Origin: a virus
Length of the DNA: 64,000 nucleotides
Strand: one strand, 5' to 3'
Virus record (IMG/VR): IMGVR_UViG_3300035698_000655
Coordinates: 1 to 64,000 of that record
The notes beneath the pieces are model-generated. The model was not told the origin of the DNA and ran no database searches. It saw nothing but the letters and a program-made list of their open reading frames with translations. Shown here one piece after another: positions 667 through 39,323 of the stretch; position 1 is the first letter of the stretch, and every line of letters starts with the position of its first letter. The position numbers and the translations under genes were made by a program.

Positions 667-813
667 TCAGTCACTTACAGAGACGAGCTGCCTCTCTAGG
701 TCAGCACAGTAGCGTTCGGTCGCTTCAATATCCCAGTCACTACCAGACGTATAGTAGTTCTCCAGCTCATTTTCGGCTGAATTGAGCAGTTCCATCAGTG
801 TTTCTTTGTTCAT
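667..813 (-). CDS. Small acidic protein, 48 aa
   Basis: Short frame starting MNKETLMELLNSAENELE and ending QLVSVSD. AAGGAGTC lies 7-8 nt before the ATG, and a near-consensus early promoter lies 30 bases further upstream, so expression is well supported although the protein is short. It is acidic and probably helical, with no recognisable domain. Small early proteins of T4-like phages often bind host proteins, but nothing here shows a target. Confidence 0.65.
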   Translation of the reverse strand: MNKETLMELLNSAENELENYYTSGSDWDIEATERYCADLERQLVSVSD

Positions 814-843: not shown

Positions 844-872
844 ATTATGACATGTATTAAGGCGATTGTCAA
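844..872 (-). promoter_or_regulatory. Early sigma-70 promoter
   Basis: Minus strand: TTGACA, 17-base spacer, CATAAT. It drives the 48-aa gene and lies back to back with the plus-strand late promoter of the nuclease cassette. Confidence 0.75.
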
Positions 873-874
873 GT

Positions 875-882
875 TATAAATA
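875..882 (+). promoter_or_regulatory. T4-type late promoter (plus strand)
   Basis: Exact TATAAATA octamer on the plus strand, 26 nt before the ATG of the only plus-strand gene pair. It is recognised by gp55-type sigma in T4, and gp55 is encoded in this window. Confidence 0.75.
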
Positions 883-908
883 GTGTTAAATACCCGAGAG
901 ATTAAGAC

Positions 909-1970
909 ATGGCTACCTTTTCACCGAAAAACTTTCCGAGTGATGTTCCCGGCAACAAGAATTTTTCTGGTGCTGGAGAAAGGACTATATACGCTCCAAC
1001 ATCAAAAACTATGTACAAGTATGATAAAGGATTTCATACTGATAAGGCAACTAGTCTCTATGATACTTCCGGCAAAGCAAAGCAACAATTGACTAAGGGC
1101 AAAACTGTTTACTTTACTTTTCCAGCAAAACTTCTAACAGGGCAACAACTCAACATATCAGGCGGGTCTGCTAGGTCAACTTTCGTAGGAGTGTCATTAA
1201 CGTCATGGAAGTCAAAGGTAGATGGTTATGTAGTTCTCAGTCACATAGCAAAACCAGGAGGTGGAGCGCAGAATCGGGTGGCTGCTGGTTCAAAAACTCA
1301 AGACATGTGCGCCACGTATGTGATGGACTTAGCATATAAACAAAAAATTGATGTTAGCGAACAATACAAAACAGCTAGACCAGGTTCTACTGTACCTGAT
1401 CTTGAAATGACTATTGCAAAAAAAGACATACAGTTTGAGATTAAAGGAACTAACAGCAGAACTGCTCCTATCACATTTTTTGACAAGTCTGCTAGTAGAG
1501 CAAAGCCTGCTCCAAAGCTATTAGATGAAATTGCCGTTGAATTTGTCAAGTCTTTACGAAAAGATGGCGTTACATTAGATAAAACTATGGAGTCTATGGG
1601 GTATCCTATTTCATTTATAGGAGCCATAGATTATTTCAAGAGCATAGACTCAACAATAGGATTAGCCGGCGACAAAGGAACTCCTGCGTCAGGAAAACTT
1701 CCTGCTGAGTTCACTACCACAGACACCACAGTGCTTAAAAAACTTCATACGAAAATACTAGAACATTTTAAAGAAGGCGGCGATAATTATTTTGCCATAC
1801 ACAACAGAACAGTAGACACTTTTGAAATATATTATGTCGGGAAGGGAAAAAGTGGAAGTGAAAATGTATTGAAGTTGCCTGCTCTTCCTATGTTCAAGTC
1901 TTTCTCTCTTGCTACTTACGGTGGAGCATCTTCAGGTTCAACTAGATGTGGACTAAAGATTAAATTATAG
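909..1970 (+). CDS. Putative PD-(D/E)xK nuclease, plus-strand cassette
   Basis: 353 aa, no full-length family recognised. Around residues 160-180 it reads PDLEMTIAKKDIQFEIKG, the PD-x(n)-ExK pattern of restriction-type endonucleases: PD, then E-I-K after a short hairpin. The N-terminal 60 residues are rich in Gly, Ser and Thr. It is expressed from a plus-strand late promoter against the direction of every other operon in the window. One nucleotide separates it from the downstream NUMOD3 gene, so the two are probably translationally coupled. A role as a homing or restriction-like nuclease is inference. It could also be a structural protein with a chance motif match. Confidence 0.5.
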   Translation: MATFSPKNFPSDVPGNKNFSGAGERTIYAPTSKTMYKYDKGFHTDKATSLYDTSGKAKQQLTKGKTVYFTFPAKLLTGQQLNISGGSARSTFVGVSLTSWKSKVDGYVVLSHIAKPGGGAQNRVAAGSKTQDMCATYVMDLAYKQKIDVSEQYKTARPGSTVPDLEMTIAKKDIQFEIKGTNSRTAPITFFDKSASRAKPAPKLLDEIAVEFVKSLRKDGVTLDKTMESMGYPISFIGAIDYFKSIDSTIGLAGDKGTPASGKLPAEFTTTDTTVLKKLHTKILEHFKEGGDNYFAIHNRTVDTFEIYYVGKGKSGSENVLKLPALPMFKSFSLATYGGASSGSTRCGLKIKL

Positions 1971-1971
1971 T

Positions 1972-2493
1972 ATGGCAGCTACTCTCTTTTTTATATTTCA
2001 GCATAAGAATCAACTGTACATTGTAGACAATACAAAAGTTGACACTGTGCCTAAGCCTCGTGAGATGATTAGACGAGCTTCTACCATTGAGCAGATACGA
2101 GAGATAGCTGCGTCAATCAATATGGAAGTTATACACGATTCTGCAAGGGATCGCACTCGCAAACACACCGAAGAAGGTAGACAGCGCATTCGTGAGGCGA
2201 AACTAGGCGAGAATCATCCTGCTGTACAGAATGGTAGATCGCAAGAGTTTCGTGACAAAGTATCTAAGACTATGACAGGCACTCGTCAAGGTCAAAACAA
2301 TCCTATGCACGGTCACAAGCATCGAGACTCTACACGACAGAAGATGTCAGAGGCAAGACGCAAGCGTGGTAAGTACAAATGGATATGTGGGCCTGAAGGA
2401 GCAACTACTATACCAGAGTATGAACCTATTCCTGAAGGATGGCTCGCTGGTAAAATATATGATCCTTACAAGCCCACCGAGTTAGATGACTGA
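1972..2493 (+). CDS. NUMOD3-type DNA-binding protein (homing endonuclease partner or remnant)
   Basis: 173 aa. The centre has repeated NUMOD3-like modules: KLGENHPAVQNG, NNPMHGHKHRDSTRQKMSEA. The C-terminus has the motif EPIPEGWLAGK, related to DPIPSGFVEGK in the GIY-YIG protein at 29692-30444. These are DNA-recognition parts of phage homing endonucleases. No GIY-YIG or HNH catalytic core is present; the N-terminal 50 residues (MAATLFFIFQHKNQLYIVDN...) are unrelated to GIY-YIG. The start has no Shine-Dalgarno and follows the upstream stop by one base, so it likely depends on coupling. It may supply DNA targeting for the upstream PD-(D/E)xK-like protein or be the remains of a homing gene. It overlaps the convergent gene by 12 bases. 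Confidence 0.6.
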   Translation: MAATLFFIFQHKNQLYIVDNTKVDTVPKPREMIRRASTIEQIREIAASINMEVIHDSARDRTRKHTEEGRQRIREAKLGENHPAVQNGRSQEFRDKVSKTMTGTRQGQNNPMHGHKHRDSTRQKMSEARRKRGKYKWICGPEGATTIPEYEPIPEGWLAGKIYDPYKPTELDD

Positions 2494-2934
2494 ATACTCA
2501 AAATTATTCGTCTCAGCGTTATCTGCTATCCTGACAGCACCGTTGCTGATGTGAAACTTTGTAGCCATTTCTGTCTTGGGTGACAGAGTAACAATCCTAG
2601 GCCAATAACTCTTAGCAATCTCTGCGTGTTCTTGTTGAACAAATCTTAGTAAACACTCAATGATCTGCCTGCCTGCTCCCTTCTTGTAAGACCAAACAGT
2701 GTAAGGTGTCACAATCATTTCGTGTCCATCTGTGCTGTCTAAGTCTGTCTCAGTTTCTGGCACACTGCTAGTGTAAGCACAACAGATCACCGCTAGAACT
2801 TCAGAGCCTTCAACTAATGCGAACGCTTTCTTTCTACCAGTAGTTCTGTACTCTGCTGAAAGATGTGGACGAACTGGATCATCTTTGATATAAGGAGTGA
2901 GTTGCTCAGTGTTGAGATGTACAAAGTTTCTCAT
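2482..2934 (-). CDS. GNAT-like acetyltransferase-fold protein
   Basis: 150 aa. A central VWSYKKGAGRQIIECLLRFV resembles GNAT motif A (R/Q-x-x-G-x-G/A) followed by the pantetheine-binding helix, and the C-terminal MATKFHISNGAVRI matches the last strands of the fold. Many T4-like marine phages carry small proteins of this type with unknown substrates. The C-terminal tail overlaps the plus-strand NUMOD3 gene end to end. Assignment rests on fold-level pattern only. Confidence 0.5.
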   Translation of the reverse strand: MRNFVHLNTEQLTPYIKDDPVRPHLSAEYRTTGRKKAFALVEGSEVLAVICCAYTSSVPETETDLDSTDGHEMIVTPYTVWSYKKGAGRQIIECLLRFVQQEHAEIAKSYWPRIVTLSPKTEMATKFHISNGAVRIADNAETNNFEYSVI

Positions 2935-2944
2935 TATAAAATAC

Positions 2945-3445
2945 CTAAGATTTTTTTGAAGCCGGCTTTGATTTGGGAGAAGACTTCTTTGCGGTCTTTG
3001 GCTTTGGGCGAGGCTTATTATACTCCTCTATACCTAGCAAAGGCAAGCACTTCTCTAGTTTAGGATACAGCTTCAACAGTGTACCATCTTTCACTGCGGT
3101 TAGAATCTTAGACTCTACCACATGAATGCCTTCTAGTATATTTACCCATTGCTGTTCACGCTTCCAGTCTGGCAAGTTGTTCATGTTGCTATTGGGATCA
3201 ATAAACTGTTTAACTCTACGCCATTCAAGTGTAAGTGTAGTCTCACCCATGCCTTCTGGTACATCAGCTTCAATCTTAGTAAGCTTTGGCAATCCTTCTG
3301 GCAATCGCCAATCGTGCTGTTCAGCACCCACACCCATACGAACGATAGGCACTACTGCTTGATTTTTAGCTGCCCATTCTTTGAGTCTGCTTACTTGTTC
3401 TTGGGGTTCTTTGACTTCAAAAACATATTTGAATCCGTCATCAAT
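2945..3445 (-). CDS. Conserved hypothetical protein with interrupted N-terminus
   Basis: The open frame reads IDDGFKYVFEVKEPQEQV, then VVPIVRMGVGAEQHDWRLPE, and ends in a Lys/Pro/Ser-rich tail (KPKTAKKSSPKSKPASKKS). The only start with a ribosome-binding site (AGGA, 9 nt away) is an ATG at 3466, two bases after the rnh stop codon. It reads MIRSFR and then an in-frame TAA at 3446-3448. A single C-to-T change of CAA would explain the TAA. Otherwise translation must start internally, for example at MPIVRMG (3352), which has no clear SD. Function unknown; the basic tail suggests nucleic-acid contact. Confidence 0.5.
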   Translation of the reverse strand: MDDGFKYVFEVKEPQEQVSRLKEWAAKNQAVVPIVRMGVGAEQHDWRLPEGLPKLTKIEADVPEGMGETTLTLEWRRVKQFIDPNSNMNNLPDWKREQQWVNILEGIHVVESKILTAVKDGTLLKLYPKLEKCLPLLGIEEYNKPRPKPKTAKKSSPKSKPASKKS

Positions 3446-3467: not shown

Positions 3468-4364
3468 TTAAAAATCCTGTATTACTTCAATCATATTTTT
3501 CATGCGGTTCTTGATAAAATAATTCATCAACTGTGATCTATCACCGCCCTGTTGTTTTTCGTAACTATTTATGACTTCTATTTTGATGTCTTCAGGAGTC
3601 TTGCTCAAGTCTACCAACATCTGATTACGATTGTATCCGTGTGACATATCAGAAGTAATCCATTGTTCAGGCGGGGTCACTTTCCATTCTGCGAGAAGAG
3701 TTTTACGAATAGACTTCTGTCGAGTGCCTTCTACGAAGCAGTTATCACCTGACAGCATGTTAGGCACACCGTCACCCTTGTCGCCTGTAATGATATGTTC
3801 CATCAGAACAGCCGATGCAGATTCTTTAATCTTGATCCACTTCTTTTGTGCAGGAGCGTATTGCTTCACATTGCTCCATTTCTGAAGTTGATTGAAGTCA
3901 TGGTCTCCTGACAGCACGAGAAAAGGAATCTGTGATCCTTCATCGAACAAGCCGTTAGCTTCTCCTGCTGTTTGTGAGTATTCAGCGAGTACACCAATAA
4001 CATCGTCAGCTTCTGCACCGTCAACATCAATCACGGGATAAGGAAAGAATTCATCTAGTTCTGCTCGTATAGTATGCAGGGCTTCGAAGATAGCTGACCA
4101 GTCTAGGTCACTGTCTGAACGAGCTTTCTTTCTGCCAGCCTTATACTGAGGAAACACATCTCGTCTCCAGTATCGTCGGTTATCACATGCAATAATTAAT
4201 TCTTCACCAAACTCTTGTGAGAACTTATTTTTGTATGAACGAATTGTGTTAAGAATCATATGACGAAGAAGTGGAAGATCGACATCTATATTAGAGCCGC
4301 CTCTGTGTCCCACTTCTCCCATGAAGGTAGCGATTGCTACCTGATTAAAGTCCACTACCATCAT
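3468..4364 (-). CDS. rnh: RNase H / 5'-3' exonuclease (T4 Rnh family)
   Basis: 298 aa, close to T4 Rnh (305 aa). It removes RNA primers and adjacent DNA from lagging strands. Acidic metal-binding clusters of the FEN-1/T5 exonuclease family are visible: MMVVDFN at the N-terminus, IIACDNRRYWRRDVFPQYKA, DVDGAEADDVIGVLA, LVLSGDHDFNQL and ITGDKGDGVPNMLSGDN (the helix-hairpin-helix loop). GAGGA lies upstream of the start, and the preceding gene ends one base before. The gene sits at the start of a replication and nucleotide cluster, as expected. Confidence 0.9.
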   Translation of the reverse strand: MMVVDFNQVAIATFMGEVGHRGGSNIDVDLPLLRHMILNTIRSYKNKFSQEFGEELIIACDNRRYWRRDVFPQYKAGRKKARSDSDLDWSAIFEALHTIRAELDEFFPYPVIDVDGAEADDVIGVLAEYSQTAGEANGLFDEGSQIPFLVLSGDHDFNQLQKWSNVKQYAPAQKKWIKIKESASAVLMEHIITGDKGDGVPNMLSGDNCFVEGTRQKSIRKTLLAEWKVTPPEQWITSDMSHGYNRNQMLVDLSKTPEDIKIEVINSYEKQQGGDRSQLMNYFIKNRMKNMIEVIQDF

Positions 4365-10067: not shown

Positions 10068-11171
10068 CTAAAATAAATCTATTTTTTCCCATGGCATATC
10101 TGGCTTACCAAAATGTCCATAGTTTGTTGTTTTTGTTAAATCTAAATCAAATAATTCAAATTTGTTTATAATTCCAAGTGGAGTTAAGTCAACTTTGTCT
10201 CTGATCAAAAGTTCTAAGTCATTGCGAACTTTACCATCTGCATAGACATAAACACTAGTTGGTTCTTTTACTCCAATAGCATAGCTAAGTTGTATTGTGC
10301 AGTTATCTGCCTTACCACTTGCTACAATATTTTTTGCTAAATATCTTGCCATATATGCTGCTGATCTATCTACTTTAGTACAGTCTTTACCTGAGAAAGC
10401 TCCGCCGCCATGTGGAGAAGACCCGCCGTAAGTATCGACAATAATTTTTCGTCCAGTAACTCCAGTGTCTCCGTCTGGTCCGCCGATGACAAACCTCCCT
10501 GTTGGGTTTATGAGATACTCAGTTTTATCATCAATAGGCGCATTGCAATTTTCTAGTGATTGTATCACAAGAGATTTGATAGACCTTTTAATTGCATCTA
10601 GTGCGTATGCTCCCGTATGCTGACTACTACAAACTACCTTACTTATTCTAAGCGGCTTATGATTTTCGTCATATTCCATCGTAATCTGTGCTTTACTGTC
10701 AGGCTTTAGCCAGCTTTCAGTTTTATGCCTCTTCTCAGCTAAAAAACTTAAAATTTTGTGACTATAAAATAAAGCACTCGGCATATACTCCTCAGTTTCA
10801 TTGCAAGCATATCCAAACATCAGGCCTTGGTCCCCTGCCCCAAAGTCATCTGTGCCTAATGCAATATCTGCACTCTGTCCATGAAGTTCGTTATAAACTT
10901 TTACTGTGTTCCAATGAAAGTTTTGTTGATCATAACCAACTTGTTTGATAACATTTCTTACAATATTTTCAATATCAGATTTCTGCATTTCAACTGAACT
11001 TTTATATTCGCCGGCGACCGTTACCATGTTAGTAGTAACAAGAGTTTCTATGGCAGCTCTGTGAGTTTTATTTTTATCAATAATATGTGTAGCAATTGCA
11101 TCAGATATTAAATCTGAAAGTTTATCTGGATGGCCTTCACTAACACTCTCACTTGTGAATTCATAATTCAT
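10068..11171 (-). CDS. metK: S-adenosylmethionine synthetase
   Basis: 367 aa, slightly shorter than bacterial MetK (about 384). It makes AdoMet from methionine and ATP. All key motifs are intact: SEGHPDK (residues 11-17), GAGDQGLMFGYA, and the P-loop-like GGGAFSGKDCTKVDRSAAYM. The gene lies between nrdA and nrdB and looks more AT-rich than its neighbours, suggesting separate acquisition. Just before it is an RNA hairpin and a nitroreductase-like gene end. In this phage AdoMet would feed the radical SAM enzyme and the methyltransferase, or replace host AdoMet during infection; the latter is inference. MetK is uncommon in phage genomes. Confidence 0.93.
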   Translation of the reverse strand: MNYEFTSESVSEGHPDKLSDLISDAIATHIIDKNKTHRAAIETLVTTNMVTVAGEYKSSVEMQKSDIENIVRNVIKQVGYDQQNFHWNTVKVYNELHGQSADIALGTDDFGAGDQGLMFGYACNETEEYMPSALFYSHKILSFLAEKRHKTESWLKPDSKAQITMEYDENHKPLRISKVVCSSQHTGAYALDAIKRSIKSLVIQSLENCNAPIDDKTEYLINPTGRFVIGGPDGDTGVTGRKIIVDTYGGSSPHGGGAFSGKDCTKVDRSAAYMARYLAKNIVASGKADNCTIQLSYAIGVKEPTSVYVYADGKVRNDLELLIRDKVDLTPLGIINKFELFDLDLTKTTNYGHFGKPDMPWEKIDLF

Positions 11172-21498: not shown

Positions 21499-21829
21499 CT
21501 TCTTTTCCTTTTTGCTTGTCCGATTTTAATGTTTCTATCTCTTTTCTCAGCTCTTCTAATGTCTGAAGAAGTTCTGAAGCGCCTCCCTTCTCTATCGGAG
21601 GATGAGACCACGACTCCAGCTGAGCTATTCGTTCGACAAGTAGAGGATAATCTGATTTCCATTTTGCTTCCTTCTTCGCAATATTTATATCATACTTTAC
21701 AGCTAAATATTCCATGACACGATCTAGTTTCTTCTGAAACCAGATTCCCATGCGTGTAGAAAGAAACCACTTACCGAAAGCAGAGCCAAATACACCAGTG
21801 ATAGCTGCTCTAACTAATATGATCCACAT
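21449..21829 (-). CDS. Membrane-anchored coiled-coil protein
   Basis: 126 aa. N-terminal hydrophobic helix (IILVRAAITGVFGSAFGKWF) then a soluble helical region (ELLQTLEELRKEIETLKSDK) and a basic C-terminus (KKVAVKKTRRKND). It lies between lipase and the small membrane protein. It might take part in lysis; no family recognised. Confidence 0.55.
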   Translation of the reverse strand: MWIILVRAAITGVFGSAFGKWFLSTRMGIWFQKKLDRVMEYLAVKYDINIAKKEAKWKSDYPLLVERIAQLESWSHPPIEKGGASELLQTLEELRKEIETLKSDKQKGKEDAKKVAVKKTRRKNDT

Positions 21830-22548
21830 TAGTCATTGTCCTGTAAGTGCTTGCAGTAATTATTCATGCTGTGGTCACGAACGCCGTCAAATACTGTGCC
21901 GTTCTTCCAAGCTGCTCTACGACCACGCCAGCCGTCTTTGAATCTCTGCCACCATGTCATCTTACGGACATTGCCATAGAAGTTGATGTAACATAGTTCG
22001 CCGTGATGCTTGTACCAAAGTAGAGCAGGAGGCATAGAAGGAACGATGTCATTGTTATTCACGCAGCGATGGTGAGGAACTTTAAGTTCTTTACCCTTAG
22101 AAGGAGTTGCGTTTCGTGGACAACCGTATGTGTAGAGTGCTTCTGCTGTTGGATAGTGAAAACAGAAGATAGAAGCAATCGCTGCTCCTAAACTATGACC
22201 TGTTACAAACACTGGACGCTTCTTGCGTCCCATGAGTTTCGATACTTCACCATACACTTTGAGTTCTAGCTTTTCGTACTCTTCATAGAAACCTTCGTGA
22301 AAGCCTCTTTCGTGAGTAGCTTCTAAGTCAGCAAAGACATCGCTCTTCTCGGTAGGTTCAGTGCCACGAAATGCTACAGTGATGCGTTCTTTGTTGCCGA
22401 GAACATATGCTTGTGCGCCTTCGATGTCAAAAAACTTAACACTAGTGAATCCTAGTGCTTTCCATTCTTTGCGTACTTCTTTGTCCAAGTCTTTGTATGC
22501 TAGTCTTGCAATACATGCGTGTGCATGAAACTCAGGTGATAACATCAT
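21829..22548 (-). CDS. Lipase (class 3, alpha/beta hydrolase)
   Basis: 239 aa. The nucleophile elbow GHSLGAA gives Ser 119; NNNDIVPSMP gives Asp 167; DGVRDHSMNNY gives His 226. AFRGTEPTEKSDVFADLEA matches the oxyanion region of class 3 (fungal-type) lipases, and YGCPRNA follows the core. No signal peptide, so it acts in the cytoplasm or after lysis. It lies directly between lysozyme and membrane genes. Acting on membrane lipids at lysis, or on lipids during infection, are both possible. GGAG precedes the ATGATG start. Confidence 0.8.
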   Translation of the reverse strand: MMLSPEFHAHACIARLAYKDLDKEVRKEWKALGFTSVKFFDIEGAQAYVLGNKERITVAFRGTEPTEKSDVFADLEATHERGFHEGFYEEYEKLELKVYGEVSKLMGRKKRPVFVTGHSLGAAIASIFCFHYPTAEALYTYGCPRNATPSKGKELKVPHHRCVNNNDIVPSMPPALLWYKHHGELCYINFYGNVRKMTWWQRFKDGWRGRRAAWKNGTVFDGVRDHSMNNYCKHLQDND

Positions 22549-23023: not shown

Positions 23024-23627
23024 TTAAAAATGCTCCAAATGATAATCGTGTCTCGCCTTCGTTTAGACCCATGCCACTGCGAGTAGCATTGTATAGCTTC
23101 TTAGAGTGTTCATCTGAAGCGTTCGGGTGTAGGCCTGACTTGAATGATTTATAATCGTTGTTCGATGCGTGTGAACGCATTTTAGTTCCACTGATACCAG
23201 TTGTGCCTTCTGAATCTGGATCTCTGTGACCTGCTGATACCACTTTCAGATGTTTGAAATGATATTCGCCATTAGGACCATTGTATTTATCAGCGAGTTT
23301 CTGAAATTCTTCTACTCTGTCAGATCCTGCAACCATTGTAGCGTGAGTGTATCCGTCTTTGTGCATCTTCTTCAAGTGTGCCATGAAGTGAGGATGTTCT
23401 TTACTCGATGCTTCGACATTCGTATTGGGATGAATATGGTTTAGATAATCGACCTTGTGCTGGACGTGGAGAGGATTCTTGTTCTTGTCTTGTGAATGAC
23501 TTACAATTACTTTGTGATCGGCGCCATGTGTTTCTGCGGTCTTCATCACATGATCTACCACTTTACTGTGTCCAGCAGTGGGAGGATTGAATCGTCCGAA
23601 ACTGAATACCATATGCTTATCAGCCAT
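22986..23627 (-). CDS. HxGH nucleotidyltransferase (NMNAT/cytidylyltransferase-like)
   Basis: 213 aa. GRFNPPTAGH (residues 11-20) is the nucleotide-binding HxGH-type motif and GISGTKMRSH (144-153) corresponds to the (I/S)SxTxxR motif of the superfamily. It could adenylylate nicotinamide mononucleotide or act on another phosphate. Near the C-terminus RLSFGAFLNEQRS carries the FxxFLxE pattern seen at the N-terminus of other late proteins here. The next gene upstream is a ligase-like nucleotidyltransferase; the two may act on the same pathway. Confidence 0.75.
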   Translation of the reverse strand: MADKHMVFSFGRFNPPTAGHSKVVDHVMKTAETHGADHKVIVSHSQDKNKNPLHVQHKVDYLNHIHPNTNVEASSKEHPHFMAHLKKMHKDGYTHATMVAGSDRVEEFQKLADKYNGPNGEYHFKHLKVVSAGHRDPDSEGTTGISGTKMRSHASNNDYKSFKSGLHPNASDEHSKKLYNATRSGMGLNEGETRLSFGAFLNEQRSSLRTTKN

Positions 23628-24790
23628 TAGTCACCTGCCGTTGCAAAGTTTGCTGCGCTGAATTCATGTCTATGAACAAACTTAGATGGTTTACCGTTAT
23701 GATGGACAACATAGCCTTCTGGGCTTGCAGGTTGGCCTGCTATTTCGTGTCCTATTGTATTATGTGAGTTCAAGGCATCTGTTAATACAGTTTTTGCTTT
23801 TTGTAGATGCTGTTGCATTTTAATGGCACTTTCGATATGCTCTTTATTGCCGTTTACATGCTTCATATTATCATCATGTGTTTTTGTATGTTTCGTTTTT
23901 GCTGCGTCAGTCTTTACGCCAGCGACTTTCTTTTTCATTGCAGTAGAATAGTGTTGAGCAAATCCTGCATGTGTAGGCTGCGAGCCGTCTCGTACTGTTG
24001 CGTTCATGTAAGTTTTGAGTGGCACTACATGCTTAGATACTGCTTCGTGAGCTTCTTTGGGTGCTTGCTTGAATTCTGATACAGCGGCATCTAAATGCTT
24101 CTTGTAGTCTGCTTGATTTGCAGAATTGTAATTGGTCTGCGAAACATCATGGTGAATAGGTAGCTGGTGTACATCTGGATGCTCTTGCAACTCAGGTACA
24201 TGCCCTTGCTTCACTTTCATGTCTGCAAAATTCTTACCCTCGTATGCGGTGTGTACAGCGACACCTATGTGCGAGTTCACTGCCTTTTGTGCGTGTTCTG
24301 AATCAGCAGGGTGATGATAGGTAAGAGTATTAGTTTTATAAGAGACACGATGTCCTTCGTGATTCATCTCTTCTTTGGTGTGCATAATGTCAGCTTGGTA
24401 GATGCCTTTACCGTCATGTACTTTAGGAAGATGTTCTAATGCGGTCGTTAGCTTTCTGACTAGACCAGGAGCGTGTCCGTGATTCTTTTGAATGTCTTCT
24501 GGTGTAAAGTTCAACTTTGGATCCTTATTGAATACAGACTTAGAACCGACAAAGAATTTACCAGTTTCTGGATGGGTACCGAATACAACAGAAGGACTGC
24601 CGTCGTATTTCATAGTAATCTTAGTGTCGTTCTTAGCACCACGAAGCTGGTCGTGAACGCCATTGAGCGTATGAAATGCGTGTGCGAACCCTTCCGAACC
24701 ACCGTGAACAACATGATCTTCCACATGCTCAAGGTGAGTTAGCTTATCATCGTTCGCTTCTTCAGCTAAAAATTTTGTAAATTTCATCAT
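23627..24790 (-). CDS. Ligase-like nucleotidyltransferase with capsid-targeting-like start (DUF6267-like)
   Basis: 387 aa, His-rich. TMKYDGSPSVVFG has the KxDG motif I of covalent nucleotidyltransferases (Lys 61 as candidate). GKGIYQADIMHTKEE and IGVAVHTAYEGK could be later motifs of the fold. This matches the phage family often called DUF6267. The N-terminus MMKFTKFLAEEANDD looks like a T4-type capsid-targeting sequence with L-A-E as cleavage site, raising the possibility that the enzyme is packaged and injected. A late octamer lies 5 bases before the ATG. Confidence 0.6.
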   Translation of the reverse strand: MMKFTKFLAEEANDDKLTHLEHVEDHVVHGGSEGFAHAFHTLNGVHDQLRGAKNDTKITMKYDGSPSVVFGTHPETGKFFVGSKSVFNKDPKLNFTPEDIQKNHGHAPGLVRKLTTALEHLPKVHDGKGIYQADIMHTKEEMNHEGHRVSYKTNTLTYHHPADSEHAQKAVNSHIGVAVHTAYEGKNFADMKVKQGHVPELQEHPDVHQLPIHHDVSQTNYNSANQADYKKHLDAAVSEFKQAPKEAHEAVSKHVVPLKTYMNATVRDGSQPTHAGFAQHYSTAMKKKVAGVKTDAAKTKHTKTHDDNMKHVNGNKEHIESAIKMQQHLQKAKTVLTDALNSHNTIGHEIAGQPASPEGYVVHHNGKPSKFVHRHEFSAANFATAGD

Positions 24791-29279: not shown

Positions 29280-29714
29280 TTAAAATTTTATGCTACCATA
29301 ATCTTTTTCAACATTCAGATTCTTCCTGTCGAATACTGGAGTCTCATCATACTTTGACGCACCCGAATCTGTAAGTCCTGCTTGTGGGTCTTCTAAGTCA
29401 AAAAGTTTCATTCTAGCTCTATCTACGCCAATCATAAATCGTTTATTAGTTGTAGGATCAGCATAGCGATTCTTCAACTGCTTTACCATGATTACGCCTT
29501 GCTCTTCTAACTCTTCAGTATTTATCAACGCTATCATAATGTCTGCTGTAGCAGGAAGACCAAACGATTCTGAAGTATCTGTCAACTCAACATCAGAGTT
29601 TGAATTGTGTGTCAATATGTCATTAGCATAGAATAAATGATTTCCATTGACTTCTATATCAACAGCATCCCTTTCATCTAGTTCTTCAATCTTAACAATT
29701 TTTTCTAACAACAT
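29280..29714 (-). CDS. 41: DNA helicase gp41, C-terminal part, preceded by split intein C-half
   Basis: 144 aa. Residues 1-37 are the C-terminal half of an intein: MLLEKIVKIEELDERDAVDI, then EVNGNHLFYANDILTHN, closing with His-Asn and Ser+1. Residues 38-144 are the last part of a DnaB-type helicase (SNSDVELTDTSESFGLPATA, then MVKQLKNRYADPTTNKRFMI). The intein half is very like the C-half of the gp41-1 split intein described from ocean metagenomes. Start Met chosen for GGAG and AAGGA upstream and for agreement with that family. The protein must be joined to the product of 30470-31813 by trans-splicing to give a 463-residue helicase. Confidence 0.9.
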   Translation of the reverse strand: MLLEKIVKIEELDERDAVDIEVNGNHLFYANDILTHNSNSDVELTDTSESFGLPATADIMIALINTEELEEQGVIMVKQLKNRYADPTTNKRFMIGVDRARMKLFDLEDPQAGLTDSGASKYDETPVFDRKNLNVEKDYGSIKF

Positions 29715-30444
29715 GTCTTCCTTCTCCATAACCATAACTAATATACTCGTCCAAATCCCAAACGTCAATACTGATATTTTTTCTATCTTTAGTAACCCAA
29801 ACTGTTCCTTTACCCTCAACAAAACCACTAGGTATAGGGTCGGTTGACTTTATACTAATTCTTTTTTTGTCAATCACACTATGATAAAATTTTCTATCAC
29901 TTGATGATTCACTGATTTTCTTTCTTGTATTGTCGGAAATGGGCCCTCTATTCTTTGCAATCTCTGACAACTTCTTTTTTGTTTCCTCAGAATGTGAGTG
30001 CCCATAGTTTTCGTATAACCCCAATTTGTGCTTTTTACGCTTAGTTTCAGATATTTTTTTGCGGACTTCTTCAGGGGGACTAATACCCCTATTCCAAGCT
30101 TCATTACTATCCATGTTTTGTTTTGCTTTTTCAGGATTGCCCCAAAACTGGTATTCAACATCAAGTTTTTCGTTTTTAATGTTTAATCCAGTGTGTAAAG
30201 TATTCAATTTATCTATCCACTGTTGTTCTCTTTCTAATATTATGTCATTCTCACAAACTTCTAAAACTTCAATTTTGTGATTTAACGAACCATATTCTCG
30301 CAAAGACTTTGCAATTTTAGAAGAACTACCAATTTTTCTTCCATTACTAATATGTTCGTCTAATCTTTTGTCTATGTTATTTACAGTTTTTCCCACATAC
30401 TCAAGATTAGTTATTGTGTTGGTTATTTTATAGATATGTCCCAT
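29692..30444 (-). CDS. GIY-YIG homing endonuclease between the gp41 intein halves
   Basis: 250 aa. The N-terminal catalytic domain is MGHIYKITNTITNLEYVGKT (GIY-YIG variant HIY...YVG), with an Arg helix (NIDKRLDEHISNG) and catalytic Glu near LEREQQWIDKLN. NUMOD3-type modules follow (ISETKRKKHKLGLYENYGHS, KKLSEIAKNRGPISDNT) and a C-terminal VWVTKDRKNISIDVWDL. The gene lies exactly where an endonuclease domain would sit in a full intein, and its 3' end overlaps the C-half start by 23 bases. It has its own SD and late promoter. It probably cuts intein-less gp41 alleles. Confidence 0.88.
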   Translation of the reverse strand: MGHIYKITNTITNLEYVGKTVNNIDKRLDEHISNGRKIGSSSKIAKSLREYGSLNHKIEVLEVCENDIILEREQQWIDKLNTLHTGLNIKNEKLDVEYQFWGNPEKAKQNMDSNEAWNRGISPPEEVRKKISETKRKKHKLGLYENYGHSHSEETKKKLSEIAKNRGPISDNTRKKISESSSDRKFYHSVIDKKRISIKSTDPIPSGFVEGKGTVWVTKDRKNISIDVWDLDEYISYGYGEGRHVVRKNC

Positions 30445-33043: not shown

Positions 33044-33771
33044 TTATTTCTCCGTTCATCGTTAATTTTTAAAGCTGTGTCAAAAATATTAAGATCATTA
33101 TAACACAATGTTTTCATGTGTGTCAAGTCTTTTGGAAAGCAACTGCCACCAAAGCCAGTTTTGCCGTCCGGACCAGGAACATCCCAATGAGTACCTCCTG
33201 TCCATGCATCATAAGAAAGCCTTTCGCTGATTAGAGAATAGTCTACACCGTTGCGCTGGCAAATTTCATAAAACTCGTTAGCAACTGCCACTCTCATAGC
33301 CAGTGCAGTATTACGCATCAATTTAAACATACTCGCTTCTATAGGCTCGTAAATATGTAGTGTTTTCTCTACCACTTCAAAGATTTCTACTAACTCTGCA
33401 TCGTAGTCCGTTATACCCAGAATCAATGGCAGCTCAGGATCATCTACATCGTCTTTCCAACAACGCTCACGCAGAAACTCTGGCATGATGTGTGCTTGAG
33501 GAAATTCTTTTACTTGTTCTGGTCCAATAGTACTGCGAATGACGAGCTGACAAACATCTTTATATTGCTCGTACACTTCTTTCAGAATACTAATATCAAG
33601 TTCGCCGCCAGTAGTAGGTGTAGGAACACATACAAATGCATACTCTACTGTATCAAAGTCACAAAGCAAATATTTTTTTGGATCATGTATTTGAATTGTA
33701 CAGTTTGTTTTTTTCAGTAGATACTCTGTTGCTTTGCCAACAAAGCCATAACCAATAATTGCTACGTTCAT
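33040..33771 (-). CDS. Short UDP-glucose / GDP-mannose dehydrogenase
   Basis: 243 aa against about 390-450 for typical bacterial enzymes. MNVAIIGYGFVGKATEYLLK is the Rossmann NAD loop; CVPTPTTGGELDIS and STIGPEQVKEFP are conserved; GKTGFGGSCFPKDL holds the catalytic cysteine. The C-terminal UDP-binding domain is missing, as in other phage versions. It oxidises a nucleotide sugar to the uronic acid, possibly changing surface sugars. Confidence 0.85.
   Translation of the reverse strand: MNVAIIGYGFVGKATEYLLKKTNCTIQIHDPKKYLLCDFDTVEYAFVCVPTPTTGGELDISILKEVYEQYKDVCQLVIRSTIGPEQVKEFPQAHIMPEFLRERCWKDDVDDPELPLILGITDYDAELVEIFEVVEKTLHIYEPIEASMFKLMRNTALAMRVAVANEFYEICQRNGVDYSLISERLSYDAWTGGTHWDVPGPDGKTGFGGSCFPKDLTHMKTLCYNDLNIFDTALKINDERRNK
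33097..33126 (-). promoter_or_regulatory. Sigma-70 promoter before uvsX
   Basis: TTGACA and TATAAT on the minus strand with an 18-base spacer, inside the 3' end of the dehydrogenase gene. Confidence 0.7.
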
Positions 33772-34745
33772 GAAAATAAATCCTCAAGTGTATTCTTCTC
33801 TTCGGTGTCCCATTTCAGTGATTTTACAATCGTATCCATTGGGTCTAAGAAAGCTTTTTGAAACATCAAATCGTAATCGACATATCTATGTACATTGAAT
33901 TCTTTGGGAATAACTGTATTGAATGAGATACAATTCTCTCTCATGGTATTAGGTTCTTTCAGATACAAAAACTTAATCTTATCTCCTTCTTGTATCCTTT
34001 CATACTTTTGATCTATCTTGTTTTGCTTTAGATAATAGTTATATAGTAGACTTCCTCGCACATGTATCGGAGTACCTTTTTTATAGATGTCGGCAGAATC
34101 AGTGTACTTTCCTAAATTGTTACATCCTCTAGGAAACGCAATATCTTCGGCTCGCATTTTCATAAATGCATCACGAGTATCTGCAATAAACTTTTGCAGA
34201 GTTTTCTCATCAGTAGTAAGAGTCAATCTTACTGCCTCTCTCAAAGATTCTCTCACAGGAGCAGGTGTGGACGAACGAACGATCTCCAACCCCATAACTT
34301 TTAACTTAGGTTCTTTATATCGGGTACCTTCGTTGTCATACACGTTCATCGCATATCGTTTCTTAGCGATCCAGATAGCCTTGTCTGCGATTGCTTCTCG
34401 CTTAAAGAATATCTTTTTCTCGTATGCGTGGGTGTAGTCTGCAAGCTGGTCCATAGCATTTGAGATGCAAGGTTCGATCTGGTCTGTACCGATCTTATCA
34501 AGAATGTCGATAAGTTTGTCCATATCTCTGTCTGCAAAGAACTTGTCAACGACTGCCTTGAGTGTTATGTAGCAAGAGTCAGTGTCAGAATAGAAGCTGT
34601 ACATCTCGTTCTCAGTGCCTACAATCTTGTTGACAAACACATCAAGTGCCACAGCAGTTTCACGAATAATGAATTGTCCCGACAGTGTAATACCTTCTGC
34701 TATTCTAGTATCAAAAAATCTGAAATATTGGTTAGCCCGGGTCAC
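33768..34745 (-). CDS. 43: DNA polymerase gp43, C-terminal part
   Basis: 325 aa. Begins (V/M)TRANQYFRFFDTRIAEGIT and continues with SFYSDTDSCYITL, the motif C aspartates, then thumb sequences to the C-terminus, whose LFS end resembles a clamp-binding tail. A GTG codon overlapping the TGA of the middle fragment (GTGA) could start it. Compared with family B polymerases, NQYFRFF should follow directly after LYGALA of the middle fragment. An 11-base insertion breaks the frame there, so this piece is either made separately or joined by recoding. Confidence 0.85.
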   Translation of the reverse strand: MTRANQYFRFFDTRIAEGITLSGQFIIRETAVALDVFVNKIVGTENEMYSFYSDTDSCYITLKAVVDKFFADRDMDKLIDILDKIGTDQIEPCISNAMDQLADYTHAYEKKIFFKREAIADKAIWIAKKRYAMNVYDNEGTRYKEPKLKVMGLEIVRSSTPAPVRESLREAVRLTLTTDEKTLQKFIADTRDAFMKMRAEDIAFPRGCNNLGKYTDSADIYKKGTPIHVRGSLLYNYYLKQNKIDQKYERIQEGDKIKFLYLKEPNTMRENCISFNTVIPKEFNVHRYVDYDLMFQKAFLDPMDTIVKSLKWDTEEKNTLEDLFS

Positions 34746-34876
34746 GCAAGTGCGCCGTAGAGAGAATTTAGCTGAATCTTTCTTGCCATTTGAAAGTTGT
34801 TAAACTTTGCAACAGCATTCAGCTTCTCTCTACGGAGCACTTGCAGTTCCTCCATAGTCATATTTTGTAAGTTCAC
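34742..34876 (-). CDS. 43: DNA polymerase gp43, middle fragment
   Basis: 44 aa. GTG start overlapping the TGA of the endonuclease (GTGA), with AGGGG 7 bases before. It reads VNLQNMTMEELQVLRREKLN, then AKFNNFQMARKIQLNSLYGA and LA before TGA. KIQLNSLYG is motif B of family B polymerases. It continues the N-terminal fragment after the endonuclease insertion and ends out of frame with the C-terminal piece. It contains both arms of a 28-base inverted repeat. Confidence 0.75.
   Translation of the reverse strand: MNLQNMTMEELQVLRREKLNAVAKFNNFQMARKIQLNSLYGALA
34746..34846. repeat. Imperfect inverted repeat inside gene 43
   Basis: One arm, 34746-34777, starts GCAAGTGCGCCGTAGAGAGA and ends AGCTGAAT. 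The reverse complement of the other arm, 34819-34846, starts GCAAGTGCTCCGTAGAGAGA and ends AGCTGAAT. They differ by one base and a 4-base gap. The 41-base loop encodes part of motif B. Far beyond chance, and unusual within a conserved coding region. Confidence 0.85.
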
Positions 34877-35667
34877 TTTTTTCCCCTACAGTTGTTAAAG
34901 TGCCATCTTTTGATGTTGACACTACCAGTCTTGTCACAGTGCGGACAAGTATAAACCTTCTTCTTCCTTTCTATCCAAGACTTCTTAAACGCTACTGACA
35001 TTTTCTGTCTAGTCTCGGAACTAAACTTTTTACCCGTATTCGTGTTTACGATGTCAGGGTTTTCTGCTATTCGTTTTTTCTGTTGCTCTGATTTTCTTTT
35101 TCGTTTTTCCTCAGTCCAGCCGTCGGATAGTTTTTTTCTCTCTTCCTCAGTTAAAATCTTGTCTTTACTAGGATGGTCATTAGTTTTATAGTATTCTTTC
35201 ACAGAATCTGATCGTTTTTGTTTGGTGTATTCTGAATCTTTTGCACCTACACGAGCATCCTGTGCTATTTTTAAGTTGGTTCTTGAAATGTTGGCGTAAT
35301 GTTCTGGATTTAACTGTCTGGTTCGTCCAGCTGAGTCGGCGACTCTTTTAGCGATTTCCGGGTCTTTCATACAGTTTTCTTTTCCCAGACTGTTCACATA
35401 ATCCCAGCCACCTTTACCACCATTATTAATATTATACGATAAAGGATCGTGCATGTCAACCAGTTTCTTCTCAGACGTATAGGCAGCTGCCTCAGTATCA
35501 TATTCTTCTAATATGACTTTAGAGAAGCTATCGACACCATATTTTTCAATAGCATTTTTTATTACCGTACCTGAACCCATATAAGAATCATTAGGATCTT
35601 CTGATTTGTGTACACCGATGTAATATTTTCCGTTAATGTTGTTGGTTATTTTATAAACAAAGTACAT
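34873..35667 (-). CDS. GIY-YIG homing endonuclease interrupting DNA polymerase
   Basis: 264 aa. MYFVYKITNNINGKYYIGVH is the GIY-YIG core (VYK...YIG); SYMGSGTVIKNAIEKYGVDS and LEEYDTEAAAYTSEKKLVD follow with the Arg/Glu of the fold. NUMOD3-like modules come next (KKLSDGWTEEKRKRKSEQQK, TGKKFSSETRQKMSVAFKKS), and a C-terminal zinc finger (CPHCDKTG, HFNNC). The gene sits between polymerase codons for IKRR and VNLQ, has its own AGGAG and a late promoter, and overlaps the middle fragment by 4 bases. It probably spreads by cutting intact gene 43. Confidence 0.88.
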   Translation of the reverse strand: MYFVYKITNNINGKYYIGVHKSEDPNDSYMGSGTVIKNAIEKYGVDSFSKVILEEYDTEAAAYTSEKKLVDMHDPLSYNINNGGKGGWDYVNSLGKENCMKDPEIAKRVADSAGRTRQLNPEHYANISRTNLKIAQDARVGAKDSEYTKQKRSDSVKEYYKTNDHPSKDKILTEEERKKLSDGWTEEKRKRKSEQQKKRIAENPDIVNTNTGKKFSSETRQKMSVAFKKSWIERKKKVYTCPHCDKTGSVNIKRWHFNNCRGKK

Positions 35668-35690
35668 AGTATTCTCCTATTATGTACTTT

Positions 35691-35698
35691 TATTTATA
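35691..35698 (-). promoter_or_regulatory. T4-type late promoter of the gene 43 GIY-YIG
   Basis: TATAAATA on the minus strand, 23 bases before the endonuclease start, in the short gap after the polymerase N-part stop. Confidence 0.7.
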
Positions 35699-35716
35699 CT
35701 ATCTACTTTTTTGATA

Positions 35717-37177
35717 TTATGATAAAGATCGTCTTTTGATCTCTTCATCTACATCAACTAAGGACTGCTCGGCCTCTTTCATCAGCTTCTTATACTTCTG
35801 TCTATCATCGAAGAACTTTTGTACAATTTCTGGCATATATCCTAGCTTGTTTCTTGAGAAGCATTGTCCGTTTGCAGCGACTGCATACTTACCATCAAAT
35901 TCATATTTTCTCTCTAACATTCCGTCAACTGTGACATCGTACACTTCGCCTGGCACAAGAGTTTCTGGTGACATATTGTATTGCATAATGATAGAAGGAT
36001 AAAGCGAAGTAGCATCAAAGCTTTCTACCCACTCATACTGGCCAGGAACAGGTTCTTGTACATATGCACCTGCGATTTGTCTACCTTGTTTTGGACTTTT
36101 CTGACCAAAAACAACATTCTGTTCCCATAGATGATTGTATAGCAAACAGTCCCACGTTTTTACAGGAGATGCAACATCAGAATAGTTCATCTTACCATCG
36201 TATGCCATTGTTAGACAAAGTTCAATCAGCTTGAGTTTGTCTTCTAGTTGATCTACCAACACAGTATCGATGATGTTATATTCTACGAAAAGATTCCAGT
36301 CCTTCTCATAAAAGTCTTTGAATGTATCGTGGGGATTCTCTAGCTTTTTATGTCCAAGTTCTACTTCTGTGATAAAGTCCAACTTGTAAGACTCACGAGT
36401 AACATAGGTGAACTTTTTATATAGGTCAAGATAGTCTAGTTGTGCTACACCCCAAATATCATACTTGAGAAAATCACGACTGCCCATTGTCAGAGTTTTT
36501 GCTTTGACTAAGTTAAAAGGACTAAAACCTTTCTTCATGTCTTCGCCAAACAATCTGTCTGTACGGGCGACAAGATATGGAATATCGAACAGTGCCAGAT
36601 TCCAGCCAGTCACAACATCAGGCGGATCTTGCGCCCACCAATTAATAAATTTAGTGAATAGATCCTTCTCATCTTCACACCATCTATAATCAACATTCAG
36701 ATGTGCAGTATGTTCAGTGGGAGTATATTCACCGCAGCCCCATGTGATAATCTTTTTAGTGTAAGCATCTTGTATCGTAATCAGAGTGACTTGCTCTAAA
36801 GGATTAAATACGTCAGGAAATCCGTTGTCAACAGTAGTCTCGATATCTATAGAAACAACTTTGATTTTACTTTGATCCCACTGAACTTCTTCTGGGAATT
36901 TTTGAGTGAGGTATTGATAACACCAATCTGATTGTCCGTAGATAGGAAAGTTAGAAACATCAGAATAAGTTTTTATAAACTCAGCAGCTTCTTTATTTGT
37001 ATCGAATTGGATGGGAGAAACGCTTTCTCCAAACATGGATTTGTACTTGCTAGGTTTATCAGATTTGACAAACAAAGTAGGCTGAAAGGTGTCATTGCCG
37101 ATTTGGCGATTGCCTTTCTCGCTGATACCTCTGTAGAGGATTTTGTTGCCGTAGTGTTTAGCGTAAGTGTAGAACAT
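35717..37177 (-). CDS. 43: DNA polymerase gp43, N-terminal part
   Basis: 486 aa from the ATG with GGGAG upstream. It holds the N-terminal and 3'-5' exonuclease domains (VVSIDIETTVDNGFPDVFNP; GWNLALFDIPYLVARTD; the later exo motif around EYNIIDTVLVDQLE) and palm motif A (ESFDATSLYPSIIMQYNMSP). It stops after VDVDEEIKRRSLS in the fingers region, at the endonuclease insertion point. Motifs B and C are encoded by the two following fragments. A consensus promoter lies directly upstream. Confidence 0.93.
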   Translation of the reverse strand: MFYTYAKHYGNKILYRGISEKGNRQIGNDTFQPTLFVKSDKPSKYKSMFGESVSPIQFDTNKEAAEFIKTYSDVSNFPIYGQSDWCYQYLTQKFPEEVQWDQSKIKVVSIDIETTVDNGFPDVFNPLEQVTLITIQDAYTKKIITWGCGEYTPTEHTAHLNVDYRWCEDEKDLFTKFINWWAQDPPDVVTGWNLALFDIPYLVARTDRLFGEDMKKGFSPFNLVKAKTLTMGSRDFLKYDIWGVAQLDYLDLYKKFTYVTRESYKLDFITEVELGHKKLENPHDTFKDFYEKDWNLFVEYNIIDTVLVDQLEDKLKLIELCLTMAYDGKMNYSDVASPVKTWDCLLYNHLWEQNVVFGQKSPKQGRQIAGAYVQEPVPGQYEWVESFDATSLYPSIIMQYNMSPETLVPGEVYDVTVDGMLERKYEFDGKYAVAANGQCFSRNKLGYMPEIVQKFFDDRQKYKKLMKEAEQSLVDVDEEIKRRSLS

Positions 37178-37200
37178 AGTAACTCCCAATCATTTAAACT

Positions 37201-37234: not shown

Positions 37235-38764
37235 TTATTGCCCATTAAAGTTTCTATCTAGAGTCATTCCATACGTATTTGTAGCTTTAGGCAAGTTTAG
37301 CCCGTCTTTCAATACCAGCTTATTTTTCTTGAATGGATTATAGTTCACATGATGATGCCAGCGTCCATATCTCCAAACAACTCTAGCTACATCTGGGTGC
37401 ATGTCAGCAAGCATCTGAGACTTGTTGATAGTTCCGTCAGTGTTATATCCTTCTTCGTTGATAGCTTCAGTATTCTCAGCGTGGTAAAATTCTGCTGTAT
37501 TACCACCGGCAACTGTTTGTGTTGCCATTTTGCCTTGCATGAATGAGTTGAATTGCAGACAGACATCGCCATCTTTCATTACACGCAAACAAATATCAGT
37601 ATCTTCATTATATCTGCCACGCCACTTATGCTTGCAGTCATTTCGAATTAGCAAACAAGAATAAATTCGGGTATTTGCGACAAAAGGAGGATATGATTGA
37701 TTAGGTGCAATAAAGAATCTGTATTGTGGACCTGCAATGTACACATTCTCGTATCTGTCACAGAAATCTTCCATCACACGAAAACCAGTGGAGCTTTCGA
37801 ATCTGATTCTTTCATTCTGATGTAAGCGATAAAAGTCTGCTAGATTATCATCAAGTACCCAATGCCAAGTTGCACCAATACTAATTGAATGATCCCATGC
37901 CCAGTTTCTAGCACGACCAGGGCCGTCACCATGATTTGAGAATGGAGCAACAAGAAGTGTTACATAGTCACGAATGCCGAAGGTATCGAGTGCGGCATCA
38001 TAATCTTTTTCATCTTGAGGTTCAATGATAATATAGTGTGGTATCTTCATTCTTGACAATGATCTGGATGTTATCATTGTATCTGAACGACCTTTAGATA
38101 CAATGTACATCGGGTGTCGAAGTGGCTTAGCTTCTTCTTCGTCTACCCAACGTAACAACATATTCTTTGTCACATAAAGTTTTGGATACCAGATAGAGTT
38201 AGTTTTTTCTGTGATATCTTGTCCGATCTTCTTTGCGAACTCTTCATAAAACTCTTTATTCTCAAAGTGCATGTGAATAGTTCTAAAAGATGCTGCTTCT
38301 TTCTGCTCATATTCTGGCATGTCAATCCAGTGGTCTCGCCACTTTGAATTCACATCAGCTACAACTTCGTCAACCTCAATATCAAGTTTGCTCTCAGTTG
38401 TAGTTTTCTTTTTACGGGGAATAAGAAGTGATTTGTCGATTTTAACAATGTCTTCTTCATCATCAAATAAAGAGTTTTCTGCCACAACTTTTGGATAATT
38501 GACAATATTGGTATTATAGTCAATCATCTGTCCAATGTCTGTGCAGAAATCTGCCATGTCATCAACATTACGAAAATGAACATACAGAACTTTGTATACA
38601 CCTGCCCTCTCTTCTCTCGATAATACTTTTGGAGGAAGAGGAACTGGTATTTCATCACCAAAGAATTTTTCTAGTGACATAGTATATTCATCATTTAGAC
38701 GAACATCTTTTTCTAGAAAGTTGTCATAATCGGCTGATTCTTTTACATCAACTTTGTTTGTCAT
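37235..38764 (-). CDS. TET-associated-type glycosyltransferase (possible DNA base modification)
   Basis: 509 aa. The N-terminal half has two repeats of a small domain (VYKVLYVHFRNVDDMADFCT and FRTIHMHFENKEFYEEFAKK, each followed by IGQ). From about residue 218, HPMYIVSKGRSDTMITSR, PGRARNWAWDHSISIGATWH, HWVLDDNLADFYRLHQ and RGRYNEDTDICLRVMKDGD follow the pattern of the GT-A-like TAGT family found in phages with modified bases. LDDN would be the metal site. It could glycosylate hydroxymethyl bases, although no TET oxygenase is seen here. ATG preferred over the GTG just before it. Confidence 0.7.
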   Translation of the reverse strand: MTNKVDVKESADYDNFLEKDVRLNDEYTMSLEKFFGDEIPVPLPPKVLSREERAGVYKVLYVHFRNVDDMADFCTDIGQMIDYNTNIVNYPKVVAENSLFDDEEDIVKIDKSLLIPRKKKTTTESKLDIEVDEVVADVNSKWRDHWIDMPEYEQKEAASFRTIHMHFENKEFYEEFAKKIGQDITEKTNSIWYPKLYVTKNMLLRWVDEEEAKPLRHPMYIVSKGRSDTMITSRSLSRMKIPHYIIIEPQDEKDYDAALDTFGIRDYVTLLVAPFSNHGDGPGRARNWAWDHSISIGATWHWVLDDNLADFYRLHQNERIRFESSTGFRVMEDFCDRYENVYIAGPQYRFFIAPNQSYPPFVANTRIYSCLLIRNDCKHKWRGRYNEDTDICLRVMKDGDVCLQFNSFMQGKMATQTVAGGNTAEFYHAENTEAINEEGYNTDGTINKSQMLADMHPDVARVVWRYGRWHHHVNYNPFKKNKLVLKDGLNLPKATNTYGMTLDRNFNGQ

Positions 38765-38799
38765 CACATATACACCTTACAATAATAAATCTATAACCA

Positions 38800-38879: not shown

Positions 38880-39323
38880 TTAGACGGATACGACACCCTC
38901 GGCAATAAGCCGCTGGCGATTCACCATGTGTGCTGCTTGTACATCTTCCTTCGCTTGCCCCTCGTACAACACAGCGTATCCTTCTTTGACTAGGATCTCA
39001 CCTGCGAGACAGTAGCGATCTTCGGCAGCATAGTAGACCTCAAAGTCTCCTAGAATACGTCCGAACTTACCCTTCATGTCTTCGCCGTCTTTTGCTACAC
39101 GAGTTTTGAGTACAGCAGTTTTGCCTAGAAGACTTTTCAGCCTAGCACCAGCAGCTTTACCAAACTTCTTTTCTACCTTGTCACGAGTGCGTGATTCTGG
39201 TGTGTCGATGCCCATCATTCGGACTCGCTCATCTTTCAACCATATACCAAAACCAAGGTCGATGTCAACATCTACTGTGTCACCGTCCACTACTCTGCGG
39301 ATTGTTGCTCTGTATTCGTACAT
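38880..39323 (-). CDS. Staphylococcal-nuclease-like thermonuclease
   Basis: 147 aa. VVDGDTVDVDIDLGFG, RVRMMGIDTPESRTRD and KGKFGRILGDFEVYY match the SNc family with the Arg/Asp/Glu active site; LVKEGYAVLYEG is the last core strand and helix. No signal peptide. It is a Ca-dependent DNA/RNA nuclease that could help degrade host DNA. Confidence 0.88.
   Translation of the reverse strand: MYEYRATIRRVVDGDTVDVDIDLGFGIWLKDERVRMMGIDTPESRTRDKVEKKFGKAAGARLKSLLGKTAVLKTRVAKDGEDMKGKFGRILGDFEVYYAAEDRYCLAGEILVKEGYAVLYEGQAKEDVQAAHMVNRQRLIAEGVVSV

Follow-up and report, generated by a model that had tools for sequence, protein, structure and literature searches.

The window analysed here, 64 kb out of the 64,612 bases recorded for a marine T4-like virus, carries on its plus strand a nuclease-like protein (P1) followed by a NUMOD3 protein (P2). 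Do these two proteins form a single system, or does each have a role of its own behind the promoter that they share? A sequence-only reading of this DNA had proposed a homing or restriction system with cutting and DNA recognition on separate chains. The features of the cassette and its flanks are as follows.

667-813, minus strand: 48-aa gene on the left flank of the slot, a left neighbour conserved in relatives.
844-872, minus strand: divergent sigma70-type promoter (TTGACA complement at 867-872, 17-bp spacer, CATAAT complement at 844-849).
875-882, plus strand: T4-type late promoter octamer TATAAATA, the sole plus-strand copy in the window.
909-1970, plus strand: P1, PD-(D/E)xK-type nuclease-like protein of 353 aa, without capsid-targeting sequence.
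1395-1445, plus strand: putative catalytic motif of P1, P163-D164...E177-I-K179 (from an 18-row alignment).
1972-2493, plus strand: P2, NUMOD3 protein of 173 aa with a conserved N-terminal domain, two NUMOD3 repeats and an IPEGW C-terminus.
2158-2262, plus strand: best NUMOD3 stretch of P2, residues 63-97 (Pfam PF07460, E 1.9e-11).
2482-2934, minus strand: right-flank gene, convergent with P2.
2945-3352, minus strand: DUF6433/phrog_461 gene, a constant right-hand neighbour of P2.
3468-4364, minus strand: T4 RNase H homologue (rnh; Pfam PF09293/PF02739), also a constant right-hand neighbour of P2.

ORF calls and octamer counts confirmed that these are the sole plus-strand genes, one base apart and with a late octamer in front. 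Both P1 (TAG stop at 1968-1970) and P2 begin with ATG, and the remaining plus-strand ORFs from the greedy caller are of 47-75 aa across the whole window, with no further convincing gene among them. The plus strand has a single TATAAATA octamer, 34 nt 5′ of the P1 start, and the minus strand has 17; a first-order Markov model predicts 1.8 per strand and approximately 0.0015 within 60 nt of any particular start. Where related contigs show the region, the octamer nearly always heads the cassette, and almost always as one copy. Many relatives also have TGTCAAG upstream of the octamer, which was considered as a P2 operator and rejected, being the −35 box of the divergent sigma70 promoter that is predicted from sequence to drive the leftward genes at 667-813 and 16-582.

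P1 has no match in Pfam, NCBIfam or PADLOC and a chance-level one in PHROG (E 0.25), and Pfam found no NUMOD in it. Nothing credible came from sequence searches of the PDB, tblastn with P1 and its nearer homologue returned nothing from phage GenBank records, and bacterial genomes searched with alignments of P1 and of C6, a nuclease-like group introduced below, contained no relative. Successive alignment searches of IMG/VR recovered homologues at 90%, 51-59%, 47% and 38% identity. In the 18-row alignment D164 and QFEIKG (175-180) are kept down to approximately 38% identity and P163 is present in most rows, so that the PD...EIK motif picked out earlier is real. Moreover, of the 54 proteins in the window with 150 aa or more, P1 alone matches the pattern PD-x(7-20)-h[DE]hK.

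The AlphaFold2 model of P1 depended on its input, with a pLDDT of 35 from 7 near-identical sequences and a mean of 86.2 from 18 diverse homologues. A fibre or jelly roll was looked for, and the prediction instead has a nuclease-like core: helix 128-144 and strands 149-155, 165-169 and 172-181, with D164, E177 and K179 on or beside the last two strands. The model contains the alpha-beta-beta-beta-alpha-beta core of PD-(D/E)xK proteins together with a separate folded N-terminal region. In Foldseek searches of the PDB at least the top 22 matches were all of PD-(D/E)xK type (Hjc, I-Ssp6803I, EcoRV, RecU and the like), the best at E 0.18, none below E 0.001 and none individually significant. The best match in BFVD was a 225-aa protein of P-SSM2 (E 4.8e-4). 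With its invariant motif and a model at pLDDT 86 that lies nearest to these nucleases, P1 very likely has a PD-(D/E)xK fold, as the sequence-only reading had it. It shares the predicted alpha-beta-beta-beta core, D164 and E177xK179 with archaeal Hjc, RecU, EcoRV and the homing enzyme I-Ssp6803I, but differs from them in its extra folded N-terminal region, its C-terminal elaboration and its want of sequence similarity to a known family.

P2 is likewise what it had been taken for, a NUMOD3 protein without a catalytic domain: the two repeats score 44.1 bits against a Pfam cut-off of 20.4, and neither Pfam nor the other profile searches found anything catalytic. Its similarity to homing endonucleases is confined to their DNA-binding part, as in its matches to a group I intron endonuclease (TIGR01453 positions 91-164) and to I-TevI (structure 1i3j, E 0.23). 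Compared with free-standing GIY-YIG and HNH homing endonucleases that carry NUMOD3 (I-TevI, Seg, Mob), P2 matches their NUMOD3 part but has no catalytic domain and begins with a conserved domain of its own. Homologues of P2 occur in about 60 viral contigs at the same place, beside the DUF6433 gene and rnh. In approximately half of these P2 stands alone, or behind a small basic protein only, with its own late octamer; in the other half a large gene lies directly 5′ of P2, usually overlapping or touching it. P2 is therefore a resident late gene, orthologous across phages, and NUMOD3 is seen here in a stand-alone late gene and not as the appendix of a homing enzyme. Elsewhere in the window a GIY-YIG ORF at 29692-30444 (minus strand) has a weak NUMOD3 match and a C-terminal part resembling P2 (BLASTP E 2e-5). 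Another GIY-YIG homing-endonuclease ORF (34873-35667) lies between two DNA polymerase ORFs; the family B polymerase at 33768-37189 (minus strand) is apparently split, probably into 35717-37189 and 33768-34745, with two PF00136 matches.

At least five groups of genes, with no similarity detected between them, can occupy the place before P2: P1; an EVK type (PD...EYK/EVK); C6 (phrog_3560, TKVDV...SLK); a 416-aa type (SPADI...SLK); and a 318/418-aa type. A D...(E/S)xK motif can be read by eye in all five, the structure model being that of P1 alone. When profiles were compared, P1 showed no similarity to the EVK and C6 groups and is thus unrelated to them by sequence. The exchange can be followed at the DNA level between the window and contig L008, which are 91-100% identical from the left flank through the late promoter, then carry unrelated nucleases, and then P2 genes that are 65-70% identical over the first 240 nt and 86-95% identical over the rest. 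P2s of 90-100% identity are found behind unrelated nucleases (L006 against L023; L001/L002 against L058 against L184), and P1s of 90% identity are paired with P2s of only 50%. In some pairs the N-terminal part of P2 (the first 60-80 codons) has changed along with the nuclease, so that some functional link is conceivable. All close relatives whose slot is fully visible carry some nuclease; a solitary P2 is found only in more distant phages.

These arrangements do not support the earlier interpretation of P1 and P2 as one enzyme, although its components (a nuclease-like P1, a P2 free of a catalytic domain, a late promoter) stand. In the relatives P2 is found without a nuclease, and homologues of P1 occur where no P2-like protein was found. 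Since P2 and the nucleases occur apart and reassort, one enzyme with cutting and recognition on two chains was given up as the leading model. Nor is a homing or restriction-modification system indicated in the window phage, which yielded no intron, no insertion allele and no adjacent methyltransferase. By the profile searches neither P1 nor P2 combines catalytic and DNA-binding domains in one protein, as a homing endonuclease would; no methyltransferase lies beside P1 by Pfam or PHROG, and PF00145 has no match in the record. The only methyltransferase-flanked case is the C6 relative of the cyanophage ACG-2014f (a Synechococcus phage), where a Dam methylase follows in a restriction-modification-like arrangement and there is no NUMOD3 partner. 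It is homologous to the P2-slot nuclease of L010-L018, L027, L031 and L032.

All five nuclease-like groups also stand at a second position, before a gene of the DUF6267 family, in phages without P2, cultured cyanophages included. The window has a member of this family.

23627-24790, minus strand: DUF6267 (KxDG motif) protein with a capsid-targeting start, MKFTKFLAE (Pfam PF19782, E 4e-94).

In the window no nuclease lies in front of this gene, nor does one in 13 other P2-bearing contigs, whereas in P2-less relatives the family follows a nuclease. Members of the P1, EVK and C6 groups lie directly before the DUF6267 gene (KWDG motif) in contigs with no detected P2; P2 was not found in the 17 such contigs searched, which are fragments, making the empty search weak evidence. 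Among cultured cyanophages, MED4-213, ACG-2014e and S-CAM1 have 416- or 418-type proteins at this position. P1 homologues of approximately 38% identity are also found directly before apparent terminase genes (L226, L227, L229), with long CTS-like N-termini.

In the DUF6267 slot the P1 family also has a possible link to the phage head. In T4 a capsid-targeting sequence (CTS) of 10 residues suffices, and gp21 cuts after L/I-x-E (PMC9026906). At the DUF6267 position, most of the full-length homologues of P1 begin with the T4-type form ending in L/I-x-E (MIKFRGWLTE, MKTFRGYLAE, MKSFKGYLTE, MQKFKRWLNE, MKSLKGYITE, MKTFRGYISE), with (M/V)ATFS directly after the tag. These tag-bearing relatives (L178-L181, L199-L202, L218, L219) lie under TATAAATA. 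A CTS is also found on the DUF6267 neighbour, on three EVK proteins and on two further nuclease-like proteins. Across the examined loci the strict pattern occurs at 14 of 245 gene starts, and 12 of the 14 are P1 or DUF6267 proteins. Its distribution is patchy: no C6 protein has it, nor do most EVK proteins or the P1 homologues of L220 and L223, and no P2-slot nuclease carries one. CTS-bearing PD-(D/E)xK-like proteins are encoded in the same cassette as P1 homologues at L223 722-1543, L224 4178-4999 and L225 593-1399 (VEIKMDKDAQMGG, IEIKLDKNAQMGG). The L225 protein has homologues in the Prochlorococcus phages P-SSM2 and P-SSM5. The one in P-SSM2, PSSM2_192 (225 aa, APDAMFMY...LEVK), is encoded near a CTS-bearing cytidylyltransferase and is probably the best viral fold match of P1 (Q58MG2), given the same phage and length; compared with P1 it is shorter, lacks a CTS of its own and shows no sequence similarity.

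The window P1 has no CTS and starts exactly at the residue where the tag of its relatives would be cleaved. A longer N-terminus is excluded by an in-frame TAA at 903-905. Packaging is thus not indicated for the window copy, which would be made without the tag, late in infection.

From the gene order, the promoter, the motif, the predicted core, the swapping and the tag in relatives we infer, at a probability of roughly 0.55, that P1 is a late DNase from an exchangeable nuclease pool, that P2 is an independent resident, and that some relatives of P1 are packaged and injected. On this reading P1 would be a late-expressed DNase of PD-(D/E)xK type, one of a set of mutually unrelated nucleases shared among marine T4-like phages. 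In the phage group of the window these would have been inserted between a fixed late promoter and the resident P2, and the pool would move between two late-gene slots, that of P2 and that of DUF6267. P2 would bind DNA and descend from the corresponding half of a homing endonuclease, with a function independent of which nuclease is present. Most of the P1 relatives in the DUF6267 slot carry a T4-type CTS, so that those with the tag probably enter the head, lose the tag to the prohead protease and are injected along with the phage DNA. For the window P1 the most likely substrate is foreign DNA inside the cell that makes it, provided that no other route takes it into the head, and the candidate targets are a competing phage or satellite and host or plasmid DNA; foreign DNA is the best guess because of the nuclease turnover.

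The phage's own genome would be spared through sequence specificity, DNA modification or both. One gene bears on the latter.

37235-38767, minus strand: TAGT DNA-glycosyltransferase-domain protein (TET-associated glycosyltransferase; PF20691, E 4.5e-43).

The domain suggests hypermodified DNA, and the protein is a possible source of self-protecting modification. An S-adenosylmethionine synthetase is encoded at 10068-11171 (minus strand), beside ribonucleotide reductase genes, and with both proteins encoded the phage's own DNA may be modified. The TAGT gene was found in 4 of the 13 long relatives searched, all of them incomplete contigs. No TET or m5C methylase was found in the fragment, an outcome that for TET is not a trained negative. 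Other minus-strand genes of the window include a fatty acid desaturase (40392-41120, PF00487, E 1.1e-14), unexpected for a T4-like phage, a class 3 lipase domain (21829-22548, PF01764, E 2.7e-16) and a 147-aa protein (38880-39323) whose start, VVDGDTVDVDI..., makes it by eye a candidate staphylococcal-nuclease-type thermonuclease.

Could P2 instead be a shared DNA-targeting subunit onto which any nuclease of the slot docks, giving a two-chain site-specific nuclease? Five unrelated groups share an operon with P2, each placed immediately before it and abutting or overlapping its gene, and P2 retains NUMOD3 repeats with no catalytic domain of its own. The occasional exchange of its first 60-80 codons along with the nuclease, and the lack of a CTS on all P2-slot nucleases, would also fit. 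However, P2 is alone in many phages and the same nucleases occur where no P2 was detected. Moreover, near-identical P2s accompany different nucleases and 90%-identical P1s accompany 50%-identical P2s, so that no pairwise matching is visible. We therefore consider a docking subunit unlikely.

P2 might also be a regulator or immunity factor, holding the late promoter down so that the nuclease is not made too early, or protecting the phage genome from being cut by it. There is a precedent in I-TevI, which uses its DNA-binding domain to repress the late promoter of its own gene (PMC2988022). P2 is similar to the corresponding half of such an endonuclease, and the cassette retains one late octamer at its head. 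However, a solitary P2 would need some other reason to exist, the TGTCAAG beside the promoter reads as a −35 box and not an operator, and phages with the nuclease-DUF6267 arrangement manage without P2, all of which makes such a role improbable.

A housekeeping role for P1 in recombination or packaging of the phage's own DNA (a Holliday-junction or branch resolvase, or a nuclease of head-completion type) would draw on Hjc and RecU among the nearest solved folds, on the P1-family genes before terminase genes and on late expression. Against this, swapping of families and absence from many relatives ill suit an essential function, T4-like phages normally encode endonuclease VII, and a resolvase has no need of an injection tag; we regard this role, too, as improbable. 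That P1 is a structural protein, a fibre or jelly roll with the motif there by chance, would accord with the lack of a nuclease match in Pfam, NCBIfam or PHROG but is very improbable given a motif conserved at 38% identity and a nuclease-like predicted fold.

A late DNase from an exchangeable pool therefore remains our preferred reading. A wider version of it is tentative: the nucleases, restriction-enzyme-like in kind, may form a shared, rapidly exchanged arsenal, many of them capsid-packed by means of a cleavable tag and injected, in which one lineage has swapped the tag for a co-expressed NUMOD3 partner that binds DNA and brings the nuclease along on the phage genome or into the capsid.

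Taken singly, the ingredients are familiar: phage nucleases of PD-(D/E)xK type, NUMOD3 proteins and CTS proteins. The P1 relatives and their DUF6267 neighbour share with the T4 internal head proteins (IPI, IPII, IPIII, Alt) the 10-aa tag ending in L/I-x-E, but here the cargo is nuclease-like, not an inhibitor or ADP-ribosyltransferase, and the window P1 is untagged. To our knowledge CTS-bearing nucleases are known only as artificial fusions (EcoRI, staphylococcal nuclease), and the literature searched contained no account of natural CTS nucleases or of DUF6267. The engineered T4 fusions, in which a CTS precedes EcoRI endonuclease or staphylococcal nuclease, were packed into the head and delivered to the cell (PMC9026906); the P1 relatives likewise have nuclease-like cargo behind a CTS, but they appear to be natural and varied. 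If our reading is true, T4-like phages naturally carry and inject a head-borne DNase, as was once engineered. Moreover, the way in which unrelated nucleases replace one another at two fixed late positions would suggest an arms race, with rival phages, satellites or host DNA as the opponents, an idea that may be approached in cultured relatives such as P-SSM2, MED4-213 and S-CAM1.
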